Part shown: positions 19,894 to 53,585 of the stretch, piece after piece
Layout of the letters: each line of letters opens with the position of its first letter
Position numbering within the stretch: position 1 is the first letter of the stretch
Origin: Terriglobus sp. RCC_193
GTDB taxonomy: Bacteria; Acidobacteriota; Terriglobia; Terriglobales; Acidobacteriaceae
Reading direction: 5' to 3'
Assembly: GCF_041355105.1 (NCBI RefSeq)
Contig: NZ_JBFUPK010000001.1
Location: forward strand, 744,001-808,000
Length of the DNA stretch: 64,000 nucleotides
The notes under the pieces: generated by a model
What the model saw: the letters and a program-made list of their open reading frames with translations, nothing else
What the model was told of the DNA's origin: nothing
Database searches by the model: none
Made by a program: the position numbers and the translations under genes

Positions 19894-22800
19894 CTACTCC
19901 GGCAGATATCCGTAGAGCAGATACTTTTGCCGGGCTTCGCGAAACTTCCAGAGTTCCGGTTCCCACGCAGCCACAATGTCATGCGGATCTTTTCCCGCCG
20001 CAAGCGCCTGGATGGTCGCATCGTTCAGCACCAGCCGTTGGGCTTTTGCCAATTGGAACTGCGTCGGATATTGCGCATGGACCGCAGCCAGCAACTCCGC
20101 GCCCATTGCAGGAGCATCAAGGCGCGTACGATCGGTGGCAGTTGCGCGAACGCCATGAATCTCCTGTCCGGCAAAGGGATATGGCTTGGCCGGAGTGAAC
20201 GTCACCGGCGCAAACGTCACACCCGTTATGGCACGAGCGTTCAGCGTATCGGCCAGCTTCTTCGCTTCGGCATCGGAAGCAATCCATGCAGCACCCACCT
20301 GCTCAAACGCCGCATCCGTTCCGCGTCCAATGGAGAGGTTGGTGATCTCTGCGAACGCAATTCCGGTGTACAGTGTTGCCGCTGACATGCTCTGCAGGTT
20401 GGGCGAAGGATTCACCCACGGCAAACCTGTTTGGTCATACCAAAGTCCGCGCTGCCAGTTCTGCATCTTCACCACACTGAGCTTCACACCAAGCTGCTTC
20501 TCCCCATTGAAGAACCGGGCGAGTTCGCCCATCGTCAGCCCCAGCGACATCGGCTCCTGCATGTAATCGATGTAGCTCTGCGCACCCGCATCGGCAACCG
20601 GGCCCACAACCTGCACACCGCTCGTCATCGCCGGCCGATCCAGCACCACAACCTGCGTGCCTGCCTTCGCCGCCGACTCCATCACGTAACCCATCTCGGT
20701 CTCGTAGGTGTAGAAGCGCGCCGGAACATCCTGCAGGTCGATCAGCACAGCATCCAGCTTCTGCAGGTCTTCCACCTTCGGATAGCGGTCGGCCAGCTTG
20801 GCTCCATACAGCGAGATCACGGGCAGATGCGTTGCTGCATCCGTGGCATTCCCCAGACCTTCCTTGTCCTGGGCACCCAGGATGCCGTGCTCCGGCGCAA
20901 ACAGTGTGGTTAGCTCAATACCGTTGCCGCGCTGCGCATACAGCACGTCGATGGTGCGCTTGCCGGTGCGGTCCAGCCCGGTGTTGTTGGTCAGCAACCC
21001 GATCCGCAGGTGTCCCGGCGTCTTGGCTGGAAGAGCATGTAACGCCTGGAAGTTGGTCCGCTCCAGCACGTCAATGCCGGAGAGCGTCATCTTACCCGGC
21101 AGCGGCTGATCCAACCCCAACGCCCTGGCCGCAGCCGTGGCAATGGTGCCACGCAACGGCGTAATCGGCTTGCGTCCGCGCGGATGCACCGCATTCGCCA
21201 GCAGGATCACATAGCTGTCGCTACGCGGATCCATCCAGACAGACGTACCGGTAAAGCCGGTATGCCCGAAGCTGCCCACGGGATAGATCGTTCCCCGCGG
21301 GCGCGAGTACGGTGAGTCAATATCCCATCCGAACCCACGCAGCCCCTTCGCTCCGGTGGGCTGTTCCGGTTGACACATGAGCTTCAGCGTCTCCTGCTTC
21401 AGGGGGAAGCTGCTCGGGCGTCCCGCCAGCCGATCCAGCAGCGCCTGCGCAAACAGGCTGGTGTCATGCACCGTGGAGAACACCCCGGCATGACCAGCCA
21501 CTCCACCCATCCGCCGAGTCGTGGGGTCATGTACCTCACCCCGCAGCATTCGGTCGTCGTCCATGGGCTTGTCGTCGTTATGGGCGGTGGGTGCAATGCG
21601 CGCACGCATCGCGGCAGTTGTCACGGCAGGGCAGGTGGCAGGTGCAGGTTCCCAGTACAGGTGAGGGCAGTGGGGGGTGAAGTATCCCGTCTCCGTCATC
21701 TTCAACGGCGAAAAAATATGCTTCGCCGCGTAGACGTCCAGCGGCTCACCGCTGATCTTCTCCACAATCGCGCCCAGTGTAATGAAGTTGATGTCGGAAT
21801 ACTTGAAGGTCTTTCCCGGAGGTCCGTACAGGTCCGACTCCATTGCGCGCTTCACGCCTTCGGCCTTGCCGCTCCACGCATCCTTCAGCGACACATCCTC
21901 GCGCAAACCGCTGTAGTGTGTCAGCAACTCGCGGATGGTCACGCTGCTCTTGCCATTGGCCGCAAACTCCGGCAGATACTTCACCACCGGATCATCGAAC
22001 TGCAGCTTGCCCTGTTCATACAACTGCATGATGGCAACTGAAGTCGACATGCACTTAGACAACGACGCCATGTCAAAGATGGTGTCTTCGGTCATTGCCT
22101 CAGTCGCCGGATCTTCCGCGCGATTGCCATACGTCTTCTCGTAGACAATGCGTCCGCTGCTACCAATGGCAACCACGCCTCCGGGCAATAGCTTGTCGTG
22201 CAATGCCTGCGCCATCAGCGTATCGATCTCAGAGAAGTTCGCACTCTGCGCATGCAGTGAAGCGGTGCCAAAAAACACAAGCACCAGCAATGCCGCAACA
22301 CTCTTCGCACGAGGCTTACCCATGAGGCTGAAGAGTGATCCCACAACAAACGTCACAACCGAGCCAAGCAGCACATACCAGGTGAATGCAATGTCAGACA
22401 GGGAGAAGCCTCCAATGTGAATGGGAGAGATGGGAAGTATCTTCGGCAGATACAGCGCAAGGTTGAAGGCGAACCCGGCAATCATGCCAATCGTCGCTCC
22501 AAACTGTGTTGCATAACGCGTCAGGGTGCCCAGCAGAAAGACGCCGAGCAACGCACCATATGCAACCGATGCAATGGACAATCCCATCTCGACCACGTGC
22601 CCCTTACCGCCGACCTTCACCGAATAGATAGCAATTGCCACCAACACCACGGCCCAAATGAGCGTGGCCGTGCGCGAAAGCAGATTGCGTTTTGCATCCG
22701 ATGCATTCGGCCGCAGTTTCATGTAGAAGTCCACGATGGTTGTGGACGACAGGGAATTTAACGCTGCGGACAGGTTCGACATCGCCGCTGCAAGAATGGC

Positions 22801-23799
22801 CGCGATCAACAATCCCGCAACACCTGTTGGCATCTGCTGCACGATGAATGCGGGGAAGAGGCGATCAGAACCATGCACCGTGAGAAGCGCCGGATGCTGA
22901 CCATAGAACACATACAGGCCCGCGCCAATCAGCAGGAACAGCGTGAACTGCAGAAACACAACGCCGCCACTGGCCAACAGTGAGACACGCGCCTCACGCA
23001 GATTCTTTGCAGCAAGCAGTCGCTGCACCATCAACTGATCGGTACCGTGCGAAGCCATTGTCAGGAATGCGCCGCCAATCACACCAGCCCAGAACGTGTA
23101 ATTCGAGGTCAGGTTCACGGTGAAGTCGAATAGCTGCAACTTATGCGCTGCGCTGGTGACGGCATGAACCGTAGCCCATCCGCCGTCTACCTTTGCACCC
23201 AGCGTGAACAGGGCGATGATGGTTCCGGCGATGTAGAGGAACATTTGCACCACGTCGGTCCAGATGACCGCCGCCATGCCACCTTCAAACGTATACGCAA
23301 GCGTCAACATGCTGATGATGACAATGCTGGCAATGTCATTTGTGCCAATCGCAATCCCCACAACAATGCTGACGGCATAGACACGCACGCCTTCTGCTGC
23401 CGCACGCGTCAACAGAAAGAGTCCCGCAGTAACCTTATGCAGCACCGGCCCGAAGCGGCGATCAATGAGTTGATACGCGGTGAACAACTCACCATCAAAG
23501 TAGCGCGGCAGAAACAGGATGCAGATCAGCAATCGCCCGATCATGTAGCCGAACACAAGCTGCAGAAAGGTAAAGTTGCCGCCAAAGGCAATGCCCGGCA
23601 CGCTGATGATGGTCAGCGTACTGGTTTCCGCGGACACGATGGAGAGCGCTATGGCCCACCACGGCACACTGCGTGCTGCAAGAAAGTACGACGACAACGA
23701 TGTGTCTGTAGGCTTACGGAAGCGCAGGCCAAACAGGGTAATCGCAATCAGGTAAAGGACAATCAGTCCCAGATCGAAGGCATGAAGCCGCGTCGGCAT
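19894..23799 (-). CDS. Sodium:solute symporter / serine hydrolase / NamZ exo-muramidase fusion
   Basis: One uninterrupted 1301-codon frame holds three protein families. Residues 1-492 are an SSS (SLC5-like) symporter with about 13 membrane helices and the H-G-T-D-Q-L-M-V-Q-R motif. Residues 493-518 look exactly like a signal peptide (M-G-K-P-R-A-K, hydrophobic core, H-A-Q-S). Residues about 520-900 are a class C beta-lactamase-like hydrolase with S-L-S-K, Y-S-D and H-T-G motifs. Residues about 905-1301 match DUF1343/NamZ, an exo-beta-N-acetylmuramidase. An internal ATG at 22323 has no ribosome site, so separate translation is not indicated. The embedded helix would put both enzymes outside the cytoplasmic face. 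The first codon (23799) follows nagA by 28 nt with AAGG upstream. In B. subtilis, similar hydrolase and NamZ genes are neighbours in a MurNAc operon. Confidence 0.88.
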   Translation of the reverse strand: MPTRLHAFDLGLIVLYLIAITLFGLRFRKPTDTSLSSYFLAARSVPWWAIALSIVSAETSTLTIISVPGIAFGGNFTFLQLVFGYMIGRLLICILFLPRYFDGELFTAYQLIDRRFGPVLHKVTAGLFLLTRAAAEGVRVYAVSIVVGIAIGTNDIASIVIISMLTLAYTFEGGMAAVIWTDVVQMFLYIAGTIIALFTLGAKVDGGWATVHAVTSAAHKLQLFDFTVNLTSNYTFWAGVIGGAFLTMASHGTDQLMVQRLLAAKNLREARVSLLASGGVVFLQFTLFLLIGAGLYVFYGQHPALLTVHGSDRLFPAFIVQQMPTGVAGLLIAAILAAAMSNLSAALNSLSSTTIVDFYMKLRPNASDAKRNLLSRTATLIWAVVLVAIAIYSVKVGGKGHVVEMGLSIASVAYGALLGVFLLGTLTRYATQFGATIGMIAGFAFNLALYLPKILPISPIHIGGFSLSDIAFTWYVLLGSVVTFVVGSLFSLMGKPRAKSVAALLVLVFFGTASLHAQSANFSEIDTLMAQALHDKLLPGGVVAIGSSGRIVYEKTYGNRAEDPATEAMTEDTIFDMASLSKCMSTSVAIMQLYEQGKLQFDDPVVKYLPEFAANGKSSVTIRELLTHYSGLREDVSLKDAWSGKAEGVKRAMESDLYGPPGKTFKYSDINFITLGAIVEKISGEPLDVYAAKHIFSPLKMTETGYFTPHCPHLYWEPAPATCPAVTTAAMRARIAPTAHNDDKPMDDDRMLRGEVHDPTTRRMGGVAGHAGVFSTVHDTSLFAQALLDRLAGRPSSFPLKQETLKLMCQPEQPTGAKGLRGFGWDIDSPYSRPRGTIYPVGSFGHTGFTGTSVWMDPRSDSYVILLANAVHPRGRKPITPLRGTIATAAARALGLDQPLPGKMTLSGIDVLERTNFQALHALPAKTPGHLRIGLLTNNTGLDRTGKRTIDVLYAQRGNGIELTTLFAPEHGILGAQDKEGLGNATDAATHLPVISLYGAKLADRYPKVEDLQKLDAVLIDLQDVPARFYTYETEMGYVMESAAKAGTQVVVLDRPAMTSGVQVVGPVADAGAQSYIDYMQEPMSLGLTMGELARFFNGEKQLGVKLSVVKMQNWQRGLWYDQTGLPWVNPSPNLQSMSAATLYTGIAFAEITNLSIGRGTDAAFEQVGAAWIASDAEAKKLADTLNARAITGVTFAPVTFTPAKPYPFAGQEIHGVRATATDRTRLDAPAMGAELLAAVHAQYPTQFQLAKAQRLVLNDATIQALAAGKDPHDIVAAWEPELWKFREARQKYLLYGYLPE

Positions 23800-23827: not shown

Positions 23828-24991
23828 TTACAGAACCTCTCCGCGCAGGATGGTTCCCACGCGGCTTCCTGCGGCGTTGAAGACATTGAAACTGGCCGCA
23901 GCTTCGTCCAAAGGCAGGTGCAGCATCTGCTTGGGATTGCGTGAGGCCAGGCGGACGGCTGTATCCAGCCCGCATCCAGTGAATGTCTGCACGTTGGCCA
24001 CGGCACGGTCCATCGTCAGCACCGACCCTGCAAGCACGCCTGAGTACATGGCAACGCCGTCCTTCACCTGAACGTTCATGTCGCCCAGCAGGTACTCGCC
24101 GTCGGGCATGCCGGTGGCGGCCATGCCGTCTGTGACCAGCATGGCGCGCTCCTCACCCTTCATGCGGAACCATAGACGGACGGCCTCTGGTGTGGTGTGA
24201 ATGCCGTCGCAGATCAACTCCGCATACAAATCCTTCGTGTCCAGCACAACGCCCAGCATGCCCGGTTCACGTTGAGTCAGTCCGCGCATCGCGTTGAAGG
24301 TGTGCGTGGCGCTAACCGCGCCCGCCGCAATGCCTGCACGCGCCTGCCTGGCCACAGCATCGCTATGTCCCAGGCTGATGCGGACACCTTGCTGACTTGC
24401 GTGCGCAATCATCTCCTCTGCATCGGGCAATTCAGGGGCAACGGTCATGAGTTTGATATGACCGCGTGCTGCGTCCTGAAAACGATCGAAGAGGATGACA
24501 GAGGGTCTCTCCAGCAACTCCGGATTATGTACGCCGCGTTTTTCATGCGAAAGGAACGGCCCTTCCAGGTGGATTCCGAGGATCTCTGCACCGTGCTCCG
24601 ATGCAGCAGATTCAATCGCATTTGCGATGGCTTCCAGTGCATGGAGCGTGTGATCCACGCCAGCGGTGACCGTTGTCGCAAGGAACTGCGTGGTGCCGTA
24701 GCGTGCAAGCGTGCGTGCCACCGTATCAATGGCTTCCGGCGTGCCTTCCATCACATCGCGTCCACCCGCGCCATGCACGTGAACATCAAAGAATCCAGCG
24801 CTGAGCGTTGCATCCGGAAGATACAGCGCGCCGTCCGGCAACACGTCGTGTTTCAGCGAGGTCACCTGTTGCACCTTGCCACCTTCCAGAATCAGCAGCG
24901 GATCATGGATAACCGAGTGCGGCGTAATCAGCGTTTTCGCTGCGATGGCTTTCGGGCGTGTGCCGGATGCGAGTTTTGTTTCGTCAGTCAT
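23828..24991 (-). CDS. nagA: N-acetylglucosamine-6-phosphate deacetylase
   Basis: This enzyme removes acetate from GlcNAc-6-P to give glucosamine-6-P, the entry of amino sugars into glycolysis or wall synthesis. The 387-residue amidohydrolase has the metal-binding H71-x-H73 (D-V-H-V-H-G), a metal-ligand E in L-E-G-P-F-L, histidines in S-L-G-H-S and T-H-T-F-N-A-M, and the catalytic Asp in V-T-D-G-M-A. It overlaps the upstream hexosaminidase by 4 nt (ATGA) and lies 28 nt before the symporter fusion. It thus sits between the enzyme releasing GlcNAc and the putative importer. No nagB or GlcNAc kinase is nearby. Confidence 0.95.
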   Translation of the reverse strand: MTDETKLASGTRPKAIAAKTLITPHSVIHDPLLILEGGKVQQVTSLKHDVLPDGALYLPDATLSAGFFDVHVHGAGGRDVMEGTPEAIDTVARTLARYGTTQFLATTVTAGVDHTLHALEAIANAIESAASEHGAEILGIHLEGPFLSHEKRGVHNPELLERPSVILFDRFQDAARGHIKLMTVAPELPDAEEMIAHASQQGVRISLGHSDAVARQARAGIAAGAVSATHTFNAMRGLTQREPGMLGVVLDTKDLYAELICDGIHTTPEAVRLWFRMKGEERAMLVTDGMAATGMPDGEYLLGDMNVQVKDGVAMYSGVLAGSVLTMDRAVANVQTFTGCGLDTAVRLASRNPKQMLHLPLDEAAASFNVFNAAGSRVGTILRGEVL

Positions 24992-27102
24992 TGCGGAGCT
25001 CCAGGCGCAGGCGGCGCGGGCAGTCCAATCTCAGATGCCGGAGGAATGGTTTGCGTGCGGTCCCACTGCCGTTGCGCGGAACGCACTTTATCAATGCGGC
25101 TGAGCCATGTGTTCAGCGTGTAGTCATACCGTGCAAGGTTATTGCGAAGGAAGTAGGGGCGATTGCTTTTTAACCATGCGGCCTCATACAGATCGCGCAT
25201 CAGTGAATACTGGTTGCGCAAATCCTGCAACTTGCCATTTACGGCATTGATGTCATTCAGATCGCGCGATACTTCTGTGCGGCTGTCTTTGTCTTTCGCC
25301 GTCTGCAGGCGATAGGCATTGCTATATGTCGTTGCCATCTCGTCGGTCAGTTGAAACTTCAGTCCAATCAAATCCATGCGCCGCGCACCCAGTTCCATGG
25401 CATCCAGGGCATCCTGTTCGCGCAGTGTTGCAGCGTTACGGGCCTGTGCCATCAGCACAATCGCCTGTTCCGCATGCATGCGCAGTTCGTGCAGATACGG
25501 TCGAATCTTAGGCGCGTAAATCTGGCCGTCCGCACTCCACGGATCAATCCAGAACAACAGGTCAGAAGCATCGCTTGTCTTGAAGCCGTTCTTCAACACA
25601 GCATGCGCAGCCATCAACTCTTTCTGCGCTTCATTGACCTTGCCGGTTGCATCGCCGTGGAACACCTGCGCAAAGCTGTCCTGAAATTGCGGGATGGAGC
25701 TTTCACCCTTGTGCCATGCGGCCTGCGCACCAAACAGCAGGGCATACCAGTTGTTGTTGAACAACGCTTCGCCATCGTCTTCCCATAGCGTGTTCAGCTG
25801 CCCGGTGCAACCGCTGGCCTGTCCCTGCGCGGTGAATTGCTGAATGTTCGGTAGAGCATTGTTGAAGTTGGGCCACACGCGGCTCCAGTTGTTCACTCCC
25901 GGCGCCACCCAGCATTCCATCCCGGCGTCGGTATACGGCTTAATCCACGGAGCAAAACTGGTATGCGGGTTGTATTCCCAACCCACGGCAATCGTCTGTT
26001 GTTTGAAGTCCTGCGGCAGCGTTTTCAGCAACGCAGGCTCCTTCATGGCAATGTCGCCCCAGAAAAGAAAGCGGCGATTCAGTGGCTTCAGCGCGGCGAC
26101 GGTCTTCTGCAGATAGTCCAGGTACACAGGCCCAAGTCCCTGCGCATCCACTGCTGCTTTTGTCTGCCCCTTGCCCAGCTCCACCGTTTCATCTGCGCCT
26201 ATGTGCAGAAGTGGCGAAGGATAATCCGCAGCAAGCTCGCTGTACATGCGTTTTGTCAGTTCAACGGAGCCAGGCTGTCCCGGCGCCAGTACATGCCCAT
26301 GTGGCGTCTCGGCCAGCGGCGCATACATCTCCTGGTTCAGCATGTAATGCAGATGGCCAAACGCTTCCTGCTCAGGGATGACGGTGATGTGATATTGCGC
26401 AGCGTAGGCAACCAGTTCGCGTGCCTGCTCCGGTGTAATGGAGCCTCCGGGCGGCGCGGCCAGCGGCTCACTGCGATACTGCATTGTGTTCTCAAAGTAC
26501 GGCGAATAGACATTCACCTTGTACGACGCCAGCTTACGGATCAACTCCTTCTGAAACGCAAGGGTCGGCACCGGCCCGCGCGAAAGATCATCATGCAGGC
26601 CGCGATACTTCATCGCTGGCCAATCGCGGATGCTGGCCGTTTGCAAGGTTGCCGTGTTGCCACTGCCACTGACGAGTTGCTTCGCTGTCATTGCGCCATA
26701 GAACACGCCGGTAGACGTCGCGGCCACAACACTGATGCCCGATGCATCGGGAACAATGGCATACCCCTCTTCCTGCATCTCGGGCGACCATGCAATATGT
26801 GCGGAACTCAGCGCCTGCCTGCCTGCGTCGCTGCCAGAGCGCAGTAACGTGATGTGCGCCGAACCGGATGTCGTAACCACAATGTTGCTGTCACGTAGCT
26901 GGCGCGTGAGTTCGTTCACCGCAAAGGTGTCGTCCGCATTGCACGCGGAGCAGATAATGCTGACACCCTGCGAAAGAGGAATCGTGCGAACAGCGTTGGC
27001 CTCGCGCGGCGTAGGGATCAGCGCCATCTGCGAGAAAGCCGTGACACTGAACATCAAGGTGCAGGGGAAAGACAGGCGGCGCAACTTTGGGGCAAGGGCC
27101 AT
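24988..27102 (-). CDS. Secreted glycoside hydrolase family 20 beta-N-acetylhexosaminidase
   Basis: This enzyme should release terminal beta-GlcNAc/GalNAc by substrate-assisted catalysis. The 704-residue protein has a signal peptide (about 1-25, ending A-F-S-Q), an N-terminal GH20b alpha/beta domain (about 30-165) and the TIM barrel. The catalytic pair is D304-E305 in H-I-G-A-D-E-T. A long helical C-terminal region (about 500-690) follows. Its stop overlaps the nagA start. TAGTTT 6 nt before the ATG might mark an internal promoter, but the 28-nt gap to the upstream lyase-like gene argues for one operon. Natural substrates could be peptidoglycan fragments, chitin oligomers or glycosaminoglycans. 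Confidence 0.9.
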   Translation of the reverse strand: MALAPKLRRLSFPCTLMFSVTAFSQMALIPTPREANAVRTIPLSQGVSIICSACNADDTFAVNELTRQLRDSNIVVTTSGSAHITLLRSGSDAGRQALSSAHIAWSPEMQEEGYAIVPDASGISVVAATSTGVFYGAMTAKQLVSGSGNTATLQTASIRDWPAMKYRGLHDDLSRGPVPTLAFQKELIRKLASYKVNVYSPYFENTMQYRSEPLAAPPGGSITPEQARELVAYAAQYHITVIPEQEAFGHLHYMLNQEMYAPLAETPHGHVLAPGQPGSVELTKRMYSELAADYPSPLLHIGADETVELGKGQTKAAVDAQGLGPVYLDYLQKTVAALKPLNRRFLFWGDIAMKEPALLKTLPQDFKQQTIAVGWEYNPHTSFAPWIKPYTDAGMECWVAPGVNNWSRVWPNFNNALPNIQQFTAQGQASGCTGQLNTLWEDDGEALFNNNWYALLFGAQAAWHKGESSIPQFQDSFAQVFHGDATGKVNEAQKELMAAHAVLKNGFKTSDASDLLFWIDPWSADGQIYAPKIRPYLHELRMHAEQAIVLMAQARNAATLREQDALDAMELGARRMDLIGLKFQLTDEMATTYSNAYRLQTAKDKDSRTEVSRDLNDINAVNGKLQDLRNQYSLMRDLYEAAWLKSNRPYFLRNNLARYDYTLNTWLSRIDKVRSAQRQWDRTQTIPPASEIGLPAPPAPGAPQ

Positions 27103-27130: not shown

Positions 27131-28339
27131 TCAAGCAGGAGGACGTACCGTCCAGAGTGCGGGCTGCCGCATGGGAAACGTTCGCAGCAACTCTGGCTTC
27201 TTCGGTTTTATGGGCAAACGCTTCCACAACGCAATGTATTCCGAACGGCTGTATGCACGCCCTGCAAGCAGAAGACTCGGCTGTCGCACGGGCCAGTCCG
27301 TGAAGTGTTCCGCGTCCGAGGGAAATTTCCATGCGCCACGGTTCAGCAGCACCGGAAACAGCCATGCTGCTGCCGATCGCATGCCGCGTCCATCCTGCAG
27401 ATTGAAGTCCCACAGACGATCCAACGGCGAAGAAACCGCCTCGCATGTCATCGACAGGCAATCCAGCGTGAAGATGGAGGCGGCATAAGCATCGGGGCCA
27501 TGGAGTTCCAGGGGGAACTGACCATCAAGATTCATTTCGCGCAGCAACTTGTCGCGGAAGCGATGCAGGCAATCCAGTTGCAGTGCGCCATTGCGTGTGA
27601 AGCGCGCCATCTCCGCGGCTTGCAGCGTCCAGCAAATGGCGGTGCGATCCTTCATCTCGCGTGCAATGAAGCCCGGTTTGCTCTCGTTCATCCATGTAGC
27701 GAAGTCGGTAAACCATTGGCGCAGAGCGGCAGCTTCCTCGTCCGTTGCCGCGCCATTGTAGGCGCATAGAAACGCAGCGCAGCGAGCCGTTTCCGCGAGC
27801 ATCACGGTGTCTTCGATACCGCGATAACTGCCGTTTGTGGAAGGCGGAATGCAGGCGGCATGGTCGAGATTCGGTTCCATGCGGGTATCGGCGTTGATAA
27901 ACCAGGCACGCAGATGATTTAAGGCATGCTGTGCATACTTCGCTTCTGATGTGAGCCGCCACGCAGCAACACAGGCCGCCACCGTGCCATTCATCTGGAC
28001 CAGCGCATCGCGATGCTGAGAAAACGCCGCGGGGTTGGAGTACCCAGGGCGATGTTCAAAGTGATCGTCCCCTGTGGCGAACCACTCAGTGTCCTCCGAA
28101 AAATACACATGAGGACTTGCCAGCTTCTTAGGCGCAGGCAGAGACGTAATGGTCTGCGGCGGCAGTCTGAGAGCTTCGGCTGCGGCGGCAAGAATGTTGT
28201 CGCGATCGTATTCCGCGACATTGAAATGAAGGTTCTCTACGGATTGGCTCCGCATTCTCAGCGAATATGCGCAACCGGCGGCGGCCATTCCGGTGAGGAA
28301 CGTACGGCGGGAGAGCGCAATGCGAGAGTGGGGGAGCAT
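27131..28339 (-). CDS. Tat-exported alginate lyase/heparinase-like protein
   Basis: A 402-residue protein with a twin-arginine signal (S-R-R-T-F-L-T-G at about 9-16) followed by an all-helical domain resembling the (alpha/alpha)6 barrel of alginate lyase (PF05426) proteins. Supporting segments are M-N-G-T-V-A-A-C-V-A-A-W, T-N-G-S-Y-R-G-I-E-D-T and W-F-T-D-F-A-T-W. The polysaccharide is not predictable; the neighbouring GH20 and NagA suggest an amino-sugar polymer rather than alginate. I chose ATG 28339 so that the Tat signal lies near the N-terminus; an in-frame TTG at 28372 is possible. It is the first gene of the four-gene amino-sugar operon. Confidence 0.7.
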   Translation of the reverse strand: MLPHSRIALSRRTFLTGMAAAGCAYSLRMRSQSVENLHFNVAEYDRDNILAAAAEALRLPPQTITSLPAPKKLASPHVYFSEDTEWFATGDDHFEHRPGYSNPAAFSQHRDALVQMNGTVAACVAAWRLTSEAKYAQHALNHLRAWFINADTRMEPNLDHAACIPPSTNGSYRGIEDTVMLAETARCAAFLCAYNGAATDEEAAALRQWFTDFATWMNESKPGFIAREMKDRTAICWTLQAAEMARFTRNGALQLDCLHRFRDKLLREMNLDGQFPLELHGPDAYAASIFTLDCLSMTCEAVSSPLDRLWDFNLQDGRGMRSAAAWLFPVLLNRGAWKFPSDAEHFTDWPVRQPSLLLAGRAYSRSEYIALWKRLPIKPKKPELLRTFPMRQPALWTVRPPA

Positions 28340-28515
28340 GGTGCCGACGAGCCTATCACCTTCGCGAGCCAATAGGCGGCGACTCAGCTATTTCTGACGC
28401 TTACACGTCTCAATCCGAAAGGTTTGCAGCTAAACCACGATATGCGAGCATCCGCGACACCGCCTCTGCTAGCATCGTTCCAACCGCCTTTCCAGGAGCC
28501 GGCAGACCAGCCCCT

Positions 28516-52625: not shown

Positions 52626-53585
52626 TTAAAGATCGAGCGGTGCATTTTCAATCGCGCGACGAACATTGCCATCTGACTTCTGCAGTCGGCGAACGGCTTC
52701 CATCTTATCGACGCTCGCCTTCAGCATCACCACCGCAATCGGAATGGACTTGCCGGCGGATTTGATGGTGCGAATCGCTGTTTCCCGATCGACGCCGGTA
52801 ACGCGCTGCAGCACATTGATGCCGCGTTCCACCAGCTTTTCGTTCTTCATGTGCACGTTCACCATCAGGTTGTCGTACACATATCCAAGCCGGGTCATCG
52901 CTCCGGTCGTGATCATGTTCGTGATCATCTTTTGCGCGGTGGATGCCTTCAGGCGAGTGGACCCGCTGATGACTTCCGGCCCCACTTCGGCCACCATGCA
53001 GATATCGGCTGCATCTGCCAGTCGCGTCCCCTGATTGCAGACAATTGCCGCGGTCTGGGCGCCACGCAGGCGCGCATATTCCACCGCGCCCACGACATAT
53101 GGAGTACGCCCGGACGCAGAGATGCCGATCACAATGTCTTTCCGGGTGGGGCGTCGCTTGGCAATGTCGCGCTGGCCCATATCAGGCGAGTCTTCATTCA
53201 CATCCGCAGCGCTGGCCAGTGCCTTGGGGCCGCCGCACATGATGTACTGCACCTGCGCGGGTTGCGTGGAGAAGGTGGCTGGACATTCCGCCGCATCCAG
53301 CGAAGCAATGCGTCCAGACGAACCGGCACCCACGTAGATGAGCCGACCGCCATCGCGAAGACAGCGCGCCACCACGTCGATAACCTGCGCAATCTCCGGG
53401 AGTGCCTTCTTCACCGCTGCGGCGACTTTTGCATCTTCCGCATTGATGATGCGTGCGATCTCAAGAGCCGACTTGGTGTCGAACCCCTCAGAAGCTTCGT
53501 TTTGCCGCTCGGTGGCCAGGGAGCGGATGCCCTGCTTATCTTGCAGGGCCGTATTGTTCTGTTCTTCGATCATGAGTGCAGGCAT
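52626..53585 (-). CDS. murQ: N-acetylmuramic acid 6-phosphate etherase
   Basis: This cytoplasmic SIS-domain lyase splits the lactyl ether of MurNAc-6-P to give GlcNAc-6-P, the substrate of NagA. The 319-residue protein has the N-terminal L-x-T-E-R-x-N-E segment, the sugar-phosphate site G-A-G-S-S-G-R-I, the catalytic Glu in D-A-A-E-C-P-A-T-F and S-A-S-G-R-T-P-Y. It stands apart from the amino-sugar operon at 20-28 kb and is divergent from lepB. No murR-type regulator or MurNAc/anhydroMurNAc kinase is next to it. The ATG at 53573 is an alternative start. Confidence 0.95.
   Translation of the reverse strand: MPALMIEEQNNTALQDKQGIRSLATERQNEASEGFDTKSALEIARIINAEDAKVAAAVKKALPEIAQVIDVVARCLRDGGRLIYVGAGSSGRIASLDAAECPATFSTQPAQVQYIMCGGPKALASAADVNEDSPDMGQRDIAKRRPTRKDIVIGISASGRTPYVVGAVEYARLRGAQTAAIVCNQGTRLADAADICMVAEVGPEVISGSTRLKASTAQKMITNMITTGAMTRLGYVYDNLMVNVHMKNEKLVERGINVLQRVTGVDRETAIRTIKSAGKSIPIAVVMLKASVDKMEAVRRLQKSDGNVRRAIENAPLDL

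Follow-up and report, generated by a model that had tools for sequence, protein, structure and literature searches.

The closest described pathway is the MurNAc salvage of Bacillus subtilis, encoded by the murQRP-amiE-nagZ-ybbC(namZ) cluster (PMC5061867). There, an amidase and NamZ act on wall fragments outside the cytoplasm, and uptake and MurQ follow. Similar steps are proposed here for Terriglobus, but the B. subtilis proteins are separate and the importer is the PTS protein MurP, whereas in Terriglobus the importer (a sodium:solute symporter, SSF), the hydrolase and NamZ lie in one chain. The link to the Bacillus operons, in which the first-pass annotation had named the hydrolase and NamZ genes as separate neighbors, is supported (amiE-nagZ-namZ). 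The only named non-PTS MurNAc importer that was found, MurT of Tannerella, is related to NagX and not to SSF (PMC9007349), and was dropped on that account as a relative of the symporter. The best match to the SSF part in both sequence and fold is SiaT of Proteus mirabilis (5nv9/5nva), a protein of 13 transmembrane helices (TM) that begins in the periplasm and ends in the cytoplasm (PMC5931594). SiaT has no fused enzymes, and its Neu5Ac-binding residues Arg135 and Gln82 are not conserved in the Terriglobus SSF. Transporter domains with additional C-terminal domains are found in the SSS-domain sensor kinases CbrA and MxtR (PMC7918813); there, the additions serve in signalling on the cytoplasmic side, whereas Terriglobus has hydrolases that follow a signal peptide. 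Two-module AmiE-NamZ proteins of Acidobacteriota and in Cupriavidus/Burkholderia records show the same enzymes in the same order (~35-50% identity), and those of Acidobacteriota are secreted with their own signal peptide, without a transporter. In the polyprotein FbcH (cytochrome b/c1) of Bradyrhizobium japonicum, a cleavable internal signal sequence links a polytopic membrane protein with a periplasmic part, but FbcH provides respiratory complex subunits and is unrelated in sequence and function.

The window, that is, the whole stretch of 64,000 nucleotides of Terriglobus sp. RCC_193 that was analysed, contains the following frame and parts:

19894..23799, minus strand: whole ORF of 1301 aa, SSF transporter - internal signal peptide - S12 hydrolase (AmiE-like) - NamZ
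22321..23799, minus strand: sodium:solute symporter module, residues 1-493, 13 predicted TM (PF00474, TIGR00813, AlphaFold2, SiaT match)
22249..22320, minus strand: signal peptide inside the chain, residues 494-517, GKPRAKSVAALLVLVFFGTASLHA, with A517/Q518 as a possible SPase I site (AlphaFold2 helix, comparison of fused junctions)
21172..22224, minus strand: Beta-lactamase/S12 domain, AmiE/PBP4B-like, residues 526-876, with SxxK S579-K582, Y667-S-D669 and H846-T-G
19912..21003, minus strand: NamZ exo-beta-N-acetylmuramidase module (NamZ_N + NamZ_C), residues 933-1296, with Glu970 in PEHG

The frame is read from the ATG at 23799-23797 to the stop at 19896-19894 and stays open for 1301 codons. 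Four Pfam matches, all far above the gathering scores, cover it: SSF at residues 38-442 (E 1e-42), Beta-lactamase (PF00144) at 526-876 (E 2e-61), and, from the NamZ models PF07075 and PF20732, NamZ_N at 933-1138 (E 5e-69) and NamZ_C at 1143-1296 (E 3e-38). A single ORF with three complete modules, as described in the first-pass annotation, is borne out; its coordinates were right, and the strand, which it left unstated, is the minus one.

The search for this architecture across relatives, in which the frames were read around each match, returned the same fusion. The in-frame SSF-hydrolase junction is present in 46 genomes of three genera of soil bacteria (Terriglobus, Edaphobacter/Granulicella and relatives). 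In detail, Terriglobus contributes 13 genomes, two with MAG frameshifts elsewhere, the Edaphobacter/Granulicella group g36 carries the join in 28/28 examined, one with a frameshift, and group g38 in 5/5. Within the named collection, further fused genes are those of T. roseus DSM 18391, Granulicella mallensis, G. rosea, G. paludicola, Edaphobacter lichenicola, E. aggregans and Bryocella elongata. A whole group of genera is characterised by this fusion. Frameshifts do occur in some MAG copies (G004, G014, G154), as would be expected if an assembly or sequencing error had joined two genes. However, the same in-frame join recurs in dozens of species, complete isolate chromosomes included, and both chance and error are ruled out because orthologues share it; the residual probability of an error is negligible. 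The objection raised at first, a frameshift or missed stop near 22300-22330, likewise fails against seven same-genus genomes with stop-free full-length frames (72-96% identity), one of them a complete chromosome, that of T. roseus DSM 18391.

Split but adjacent SSF and enzyme genes are found in T. albidus and relatives, Acidipila, Silvibacterium and Paracidobacterium, and more distant relatives have a two-enzyme gene with its own signal peptide and without a fused transporter. No three-module copy was found in the plasmid collection searched. Long frames in G125, G258, G491, G371 and G404 were rejected as fusions, being spurious upstream extensions. Two contigs titled Rhodanobacteraceae and Verrucomicrobia (L155, L138) carry Granulicella-like fused genes and probably belong to mis-binned or mis-named MAGs.

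The tree of the enzyme part (107 rows) requires a minimum of two changes, with the fusion gained once at the root of the fused group and lost once, in the lineage of T. albidus, and a careful tree of 40 rows agrees on one gain and one reversal. The split T. albidus lineage is nested inside the fused group (Terriglobus node 99/99), and forcing all fused rows of the 40-row tree into one clade was rejected (AU p 0.03). According to these trees, the fusion was gained once, in the common ancestor of the fused genera, and reversed once, in T. albidus. Its source was adjacent genes: in split relatives the SSF lies directly upstream of the secreted two-enzyme gene, some pairs overlap (ATGA), and in three genomes (G035, G134, G289) one in-frame stop codon separates the two genes, so that one point mutation could have created the fusion. 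The SSF and enzyme genes of T. albidus (G008, likewise G002) are now separated by a TIGR03435/DUF3738 gene (L034:9404-10219, also in L035), inserted exactly where these relatives split the fused gene.

A signal-peptide-like helix had been placed exactly between the transporter and the two enzymes, and the model agrees: in the window, a KPRAK n-region is followed by an AlphaFold helix at residues 498-515 and a possible cleavage site at A517/Q518. Fused genes share a basic n-region, a short h-region and an A-x-A/Q-type site, with variation among individual genes; n-, h- and c-regions together with an SPase I-like site are found at the junction. Net charge is at least +2 at all 80 junctions (80/80), and the hydrophobic core has an uncharged span with a median of 16. 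A-x-A occurs in 67/80 junctions against 49.8 +/- 3.9 after shuffling, and the mean score of the junction by position weight matrix (PWM) is 3.74 against 1.17 for shuffled sequences, with 0/300 shuffles reaching the observed mean. For the cleavage site this local shuffle test alone is informative: a whole-protein signal-peptidase PWM scan ranked the junction first in 40/79 only and did not single it out, because the conserved SSF helix end scores equally. The junction helix is the original signal peptide of the enzymes, retained from a once separate secreted protein.

An ATG ahead of the internal h-region is found in 21/81 fused genes versus 28/33 split genes, and 32/81 fused genes have no ATG, GTG or TTG at that position. 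Since the start codon is mostly lost, separate initiation cannot be general, and the chain is generally made whole. In the window and its closest relatives the internal ATG exists, as M493 (22323-22321). It had been described as having no ribosome site and indeed has no Shine-Dalgarno match, though this says little because only 1/43 SSF starts has one. If the enzymes were made mainly from this internal start, in a frame that merely lacks a stop, two proteins would result; split relatives start at this very position, and independent initiation is common among overlapping genes. Set against this are the 32 fused genes with no common start codon, the low ATG count, the missing Shine-Dalgarno at M493, and the fact that no stop codons arise across the clade despite a long and variable linker. 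Two separately initiated proteins are thus improbable.

The linker to the first enzyme is very short in most Terriglobus, at a few residues, and reaches several tens in other cases. In four linkers, those of L109 (G158), L107 (G179), L080 (G237) and L036 (G006), phrases such as VILSEAEGPA, VILRAAENLSS and AQSKDPE occur, which resemble a dispersed palindromic repeat that has been inserted in frame and translated.

The SSF part belongs to the SSS family (TC 2.A.21), with 146.6 bits for PF00474 (cut-off 22.8) and 222 for TIGR00813 (cut-off 184). Its AlphaFold2 model (mean pLDDT 78.8) shows a LeuT-type fold of 13 TM (TM0-TM12) plus the helix 498-515, and the best PDB match is SiaT 5nva/5nv9 (TM-score 0.87/0.86). 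With such a fold and its C-terminus inside, the internal signal should start in the cytoplasm and send the enzymes to the periplasm. The return of the enzymes to the periplasm by the extra helix, suggested at the outset, is in this way supported by the predicted topology. Ser60, Thr63, Asp182 and one Na2 serine of SiaT align with S60, T63, D182 and S341 of the SSF part, and the pairing of Asp182 and Ser341 with SiaT Asp182 and Ser342 is only suggestive of Na+-coupled uptake. The SiaT-type Neu5Ac site is absent (Arg135 replaced by A135, Gln82 by V82). The SSF may carry MurNAc, and the identity of the substrate is the weakest link of the interpretation.

The enzyme half is modelled with a pLDDT of 89.8 and matches the NamZ-type structures 4k05/4jja and S12 esterases. 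Ser579, Lys582, YSD and HTG of the S12 domain are invariant in 39 homologues. The best enzyme-family NCBIfam model for this domain is PBP4B (E 7e-38), which stays below the equivalog cut-off (NF002968, 130.5 bits vs 385). From its context, namely the fusion to NamZ and a GH3-S12-NamZ ORF in G347, the domain is probably an AmiE-like MurNAc-L-alanine amidase. NamZ_N and NamZ_C both score above cut-off, and the PEHG glutamate (Glu970), which we take to be catalytic, is invariant; the module would release MurNAc from non-reducing ends.

The sequences themselves show the single frame, its conservation, its single origin, the retention of the signal peptide and the loss of start codons; the topology (by the SiaT fold), the activities of the enzymes, the substrate and the cleavage are inferred, as follows. 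One mRNA frame would give one chain, whose SSF part would cross the membrane 13 times and end in the cytoplasm, and the internal signal peptide of the once separate secreted AmiE-NamZ protein would send the remaining chain to the periplasm. Signal peptidase I would cut at the A-x-A site and leave importer and periplasmic enzyme at 1:1, which would make the gene product a polyprotein. The S12 domain most likely strips the stem peptide from MurNAc, NamZ would release MurNAc from glycan fragments and GH20 would release GlcNAc, and the Na+-coupled SSF would take up the amino sugar so freed, to be processed by a kinase, MurQ and NagA. The explanation as a whole, that is, one chain, an internal signal, salvage enzymes and an SPase I cut, is given a probability of roughly 0.6.

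The first-pass annotation had instead tethered the enzyme to the transporter. The helix would then be an uncut 14th TM, and AmiE-NamZ would stay on the importer and hand over the freed sugar. The single chain kept across at least three genera is in line with this, as is the internal segment, which slightly exceeds free signal peptides in length and hydrophobicity (median h-region hydrophobicity 3.01 vs 2.77, p 0.001), which slightly favours anchoring. Strict A-x-A is also missing at 13/80 junctions, and the cleavage-site score is weaker in fused genes (mean 3.74 vs a median of 8.1 in free homologues). On the contrary, A-x-A is kept above the shuffled expectation, the linker varies from a few residues to several tens, which is odd for a selected geometry, and the T. 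albidus lineage has gone back to a separate, normal secreted enzyme. The SPase-I-like site above chance and the reverted enzyme make cleavage at least as likely as a tether, and a permanent tether is a tentative reading. Given a single chain, cleavage is moderately favoured, and anchoring of the enzymes to the importer is the less probable of the two outcomes. A stable uncut machine, with amidase and glycosidase at the outer mouth of the symporter passing wall sugar straight to uptake, is rather unlikely; no description of such a design was found in the literature for any secondary transporter. In either case, an importer and the enzymes probably feeding it are made together as one chain, then cut apart or kept joined, and the question can be addressed in the culturable T. 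roseus and T. albidus. As a natural example, the locus shows clearly how a polytopic transporter can be followed by an internal signal peptide that has been retained, with one origin and one reversal.

Upstream of the fused gene, and farther away in the window, genes of amino-sugar metabolism and an alginate-lyase-family gene are found:

23828..24991, minus strand: NagA, GlcNAc-6-phosphate deacetylase, next gene upstream (TIGR00221 above cut-off)
24988..27102, minus strand: GH20 beta-N-acetylhexosaminidase, overlapping the nagA start (PF00728/PF02838), kept in relatives
27131..28372, minus strand: alginate-lyase-family protein (PF05426), heading the gene row
52626..53585, minus strand: MurQ, MurNAc-6-phosphate etherase, 29 kb away (TIGR00274 330 bits, cut-off 302)

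The nagA gene is kept upstream of the fused gene in many relatives, and the alginate-lyase-family gene is at the head of the row only in the nearest Terriglobus genomes. The genome carries a second murQ at another locus, and the operon of the fused gene has none. In relatives, BadF kinase genes of the NagK-like type (NagK nearest, below cut-off) stand beside the SSF. In another part of the phylum, in G347, one ORF of 1349 aa (L242:3676-7725) consists of GH3 (NagZ-type), S12 and NamZ, with an SSF gene upstream in the same locus (L242:58-1944). The GH20/NagA operon, MurQ, the kinase and permease neighbors and the NagZ-AmiE-NamZ fusion point to peptidoglycan amino-sugar salvage as the role of the fused gene.

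NagA and GH20 would suit either sugar, GlcNAc or MurNAc. With the fusion being real, the imported substrate may still be GlcNAc or another amino sugar, so that enzyme and importer would share a salvage route but act on different sugars, and this applies to the cut and the tethered form alike. The operon partners NagA and GH20, the kinases nearest NagK (below cut-off) and the distance of 29 kb to MurQ agree with such a substrate. Against it, the fused gene is the MurNAc-releasing one, and this has happened twice, with different SSF types: a second SSF-S12-NamZ join, independent and in frame and with a different SSF subtype, is present in G052 (L058:1036-5187), in a single MAG where an internal ATG (MKKKSH) is a possible start. 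Import of GlcNAc or another amino sugar is possible, if the less probable choice. With MurNAc as substrate, the SSF importer, physically linked to the MurNAc-freeing enzymes, would be a candidate answer to PTS-free MurNAc import.

Several further arrangements were observed. The ORF of G347 unites the counterparts of all three enzymes that the Bacillus MurNAc cluster has outside the cytoplasm. Frames of ~980-1130 aa with GH3 and S12 parts and without NamZ are present in G515, G390, G397, G374, G424, G334 and G349, and such frames occur in several families. A second, diverged S12 gene (~30-37% identity), often divergently adjacent to the two-enzyme gene in this family, is found in L044, L045, L047, L050 and L052-L055. 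In other Acidobacteriota (L043, L046, L182, L189, L195), an APC-family amino-acid permease gene directly adjoins the SSF, and perhaps serves for amino acids freed by the amidase.
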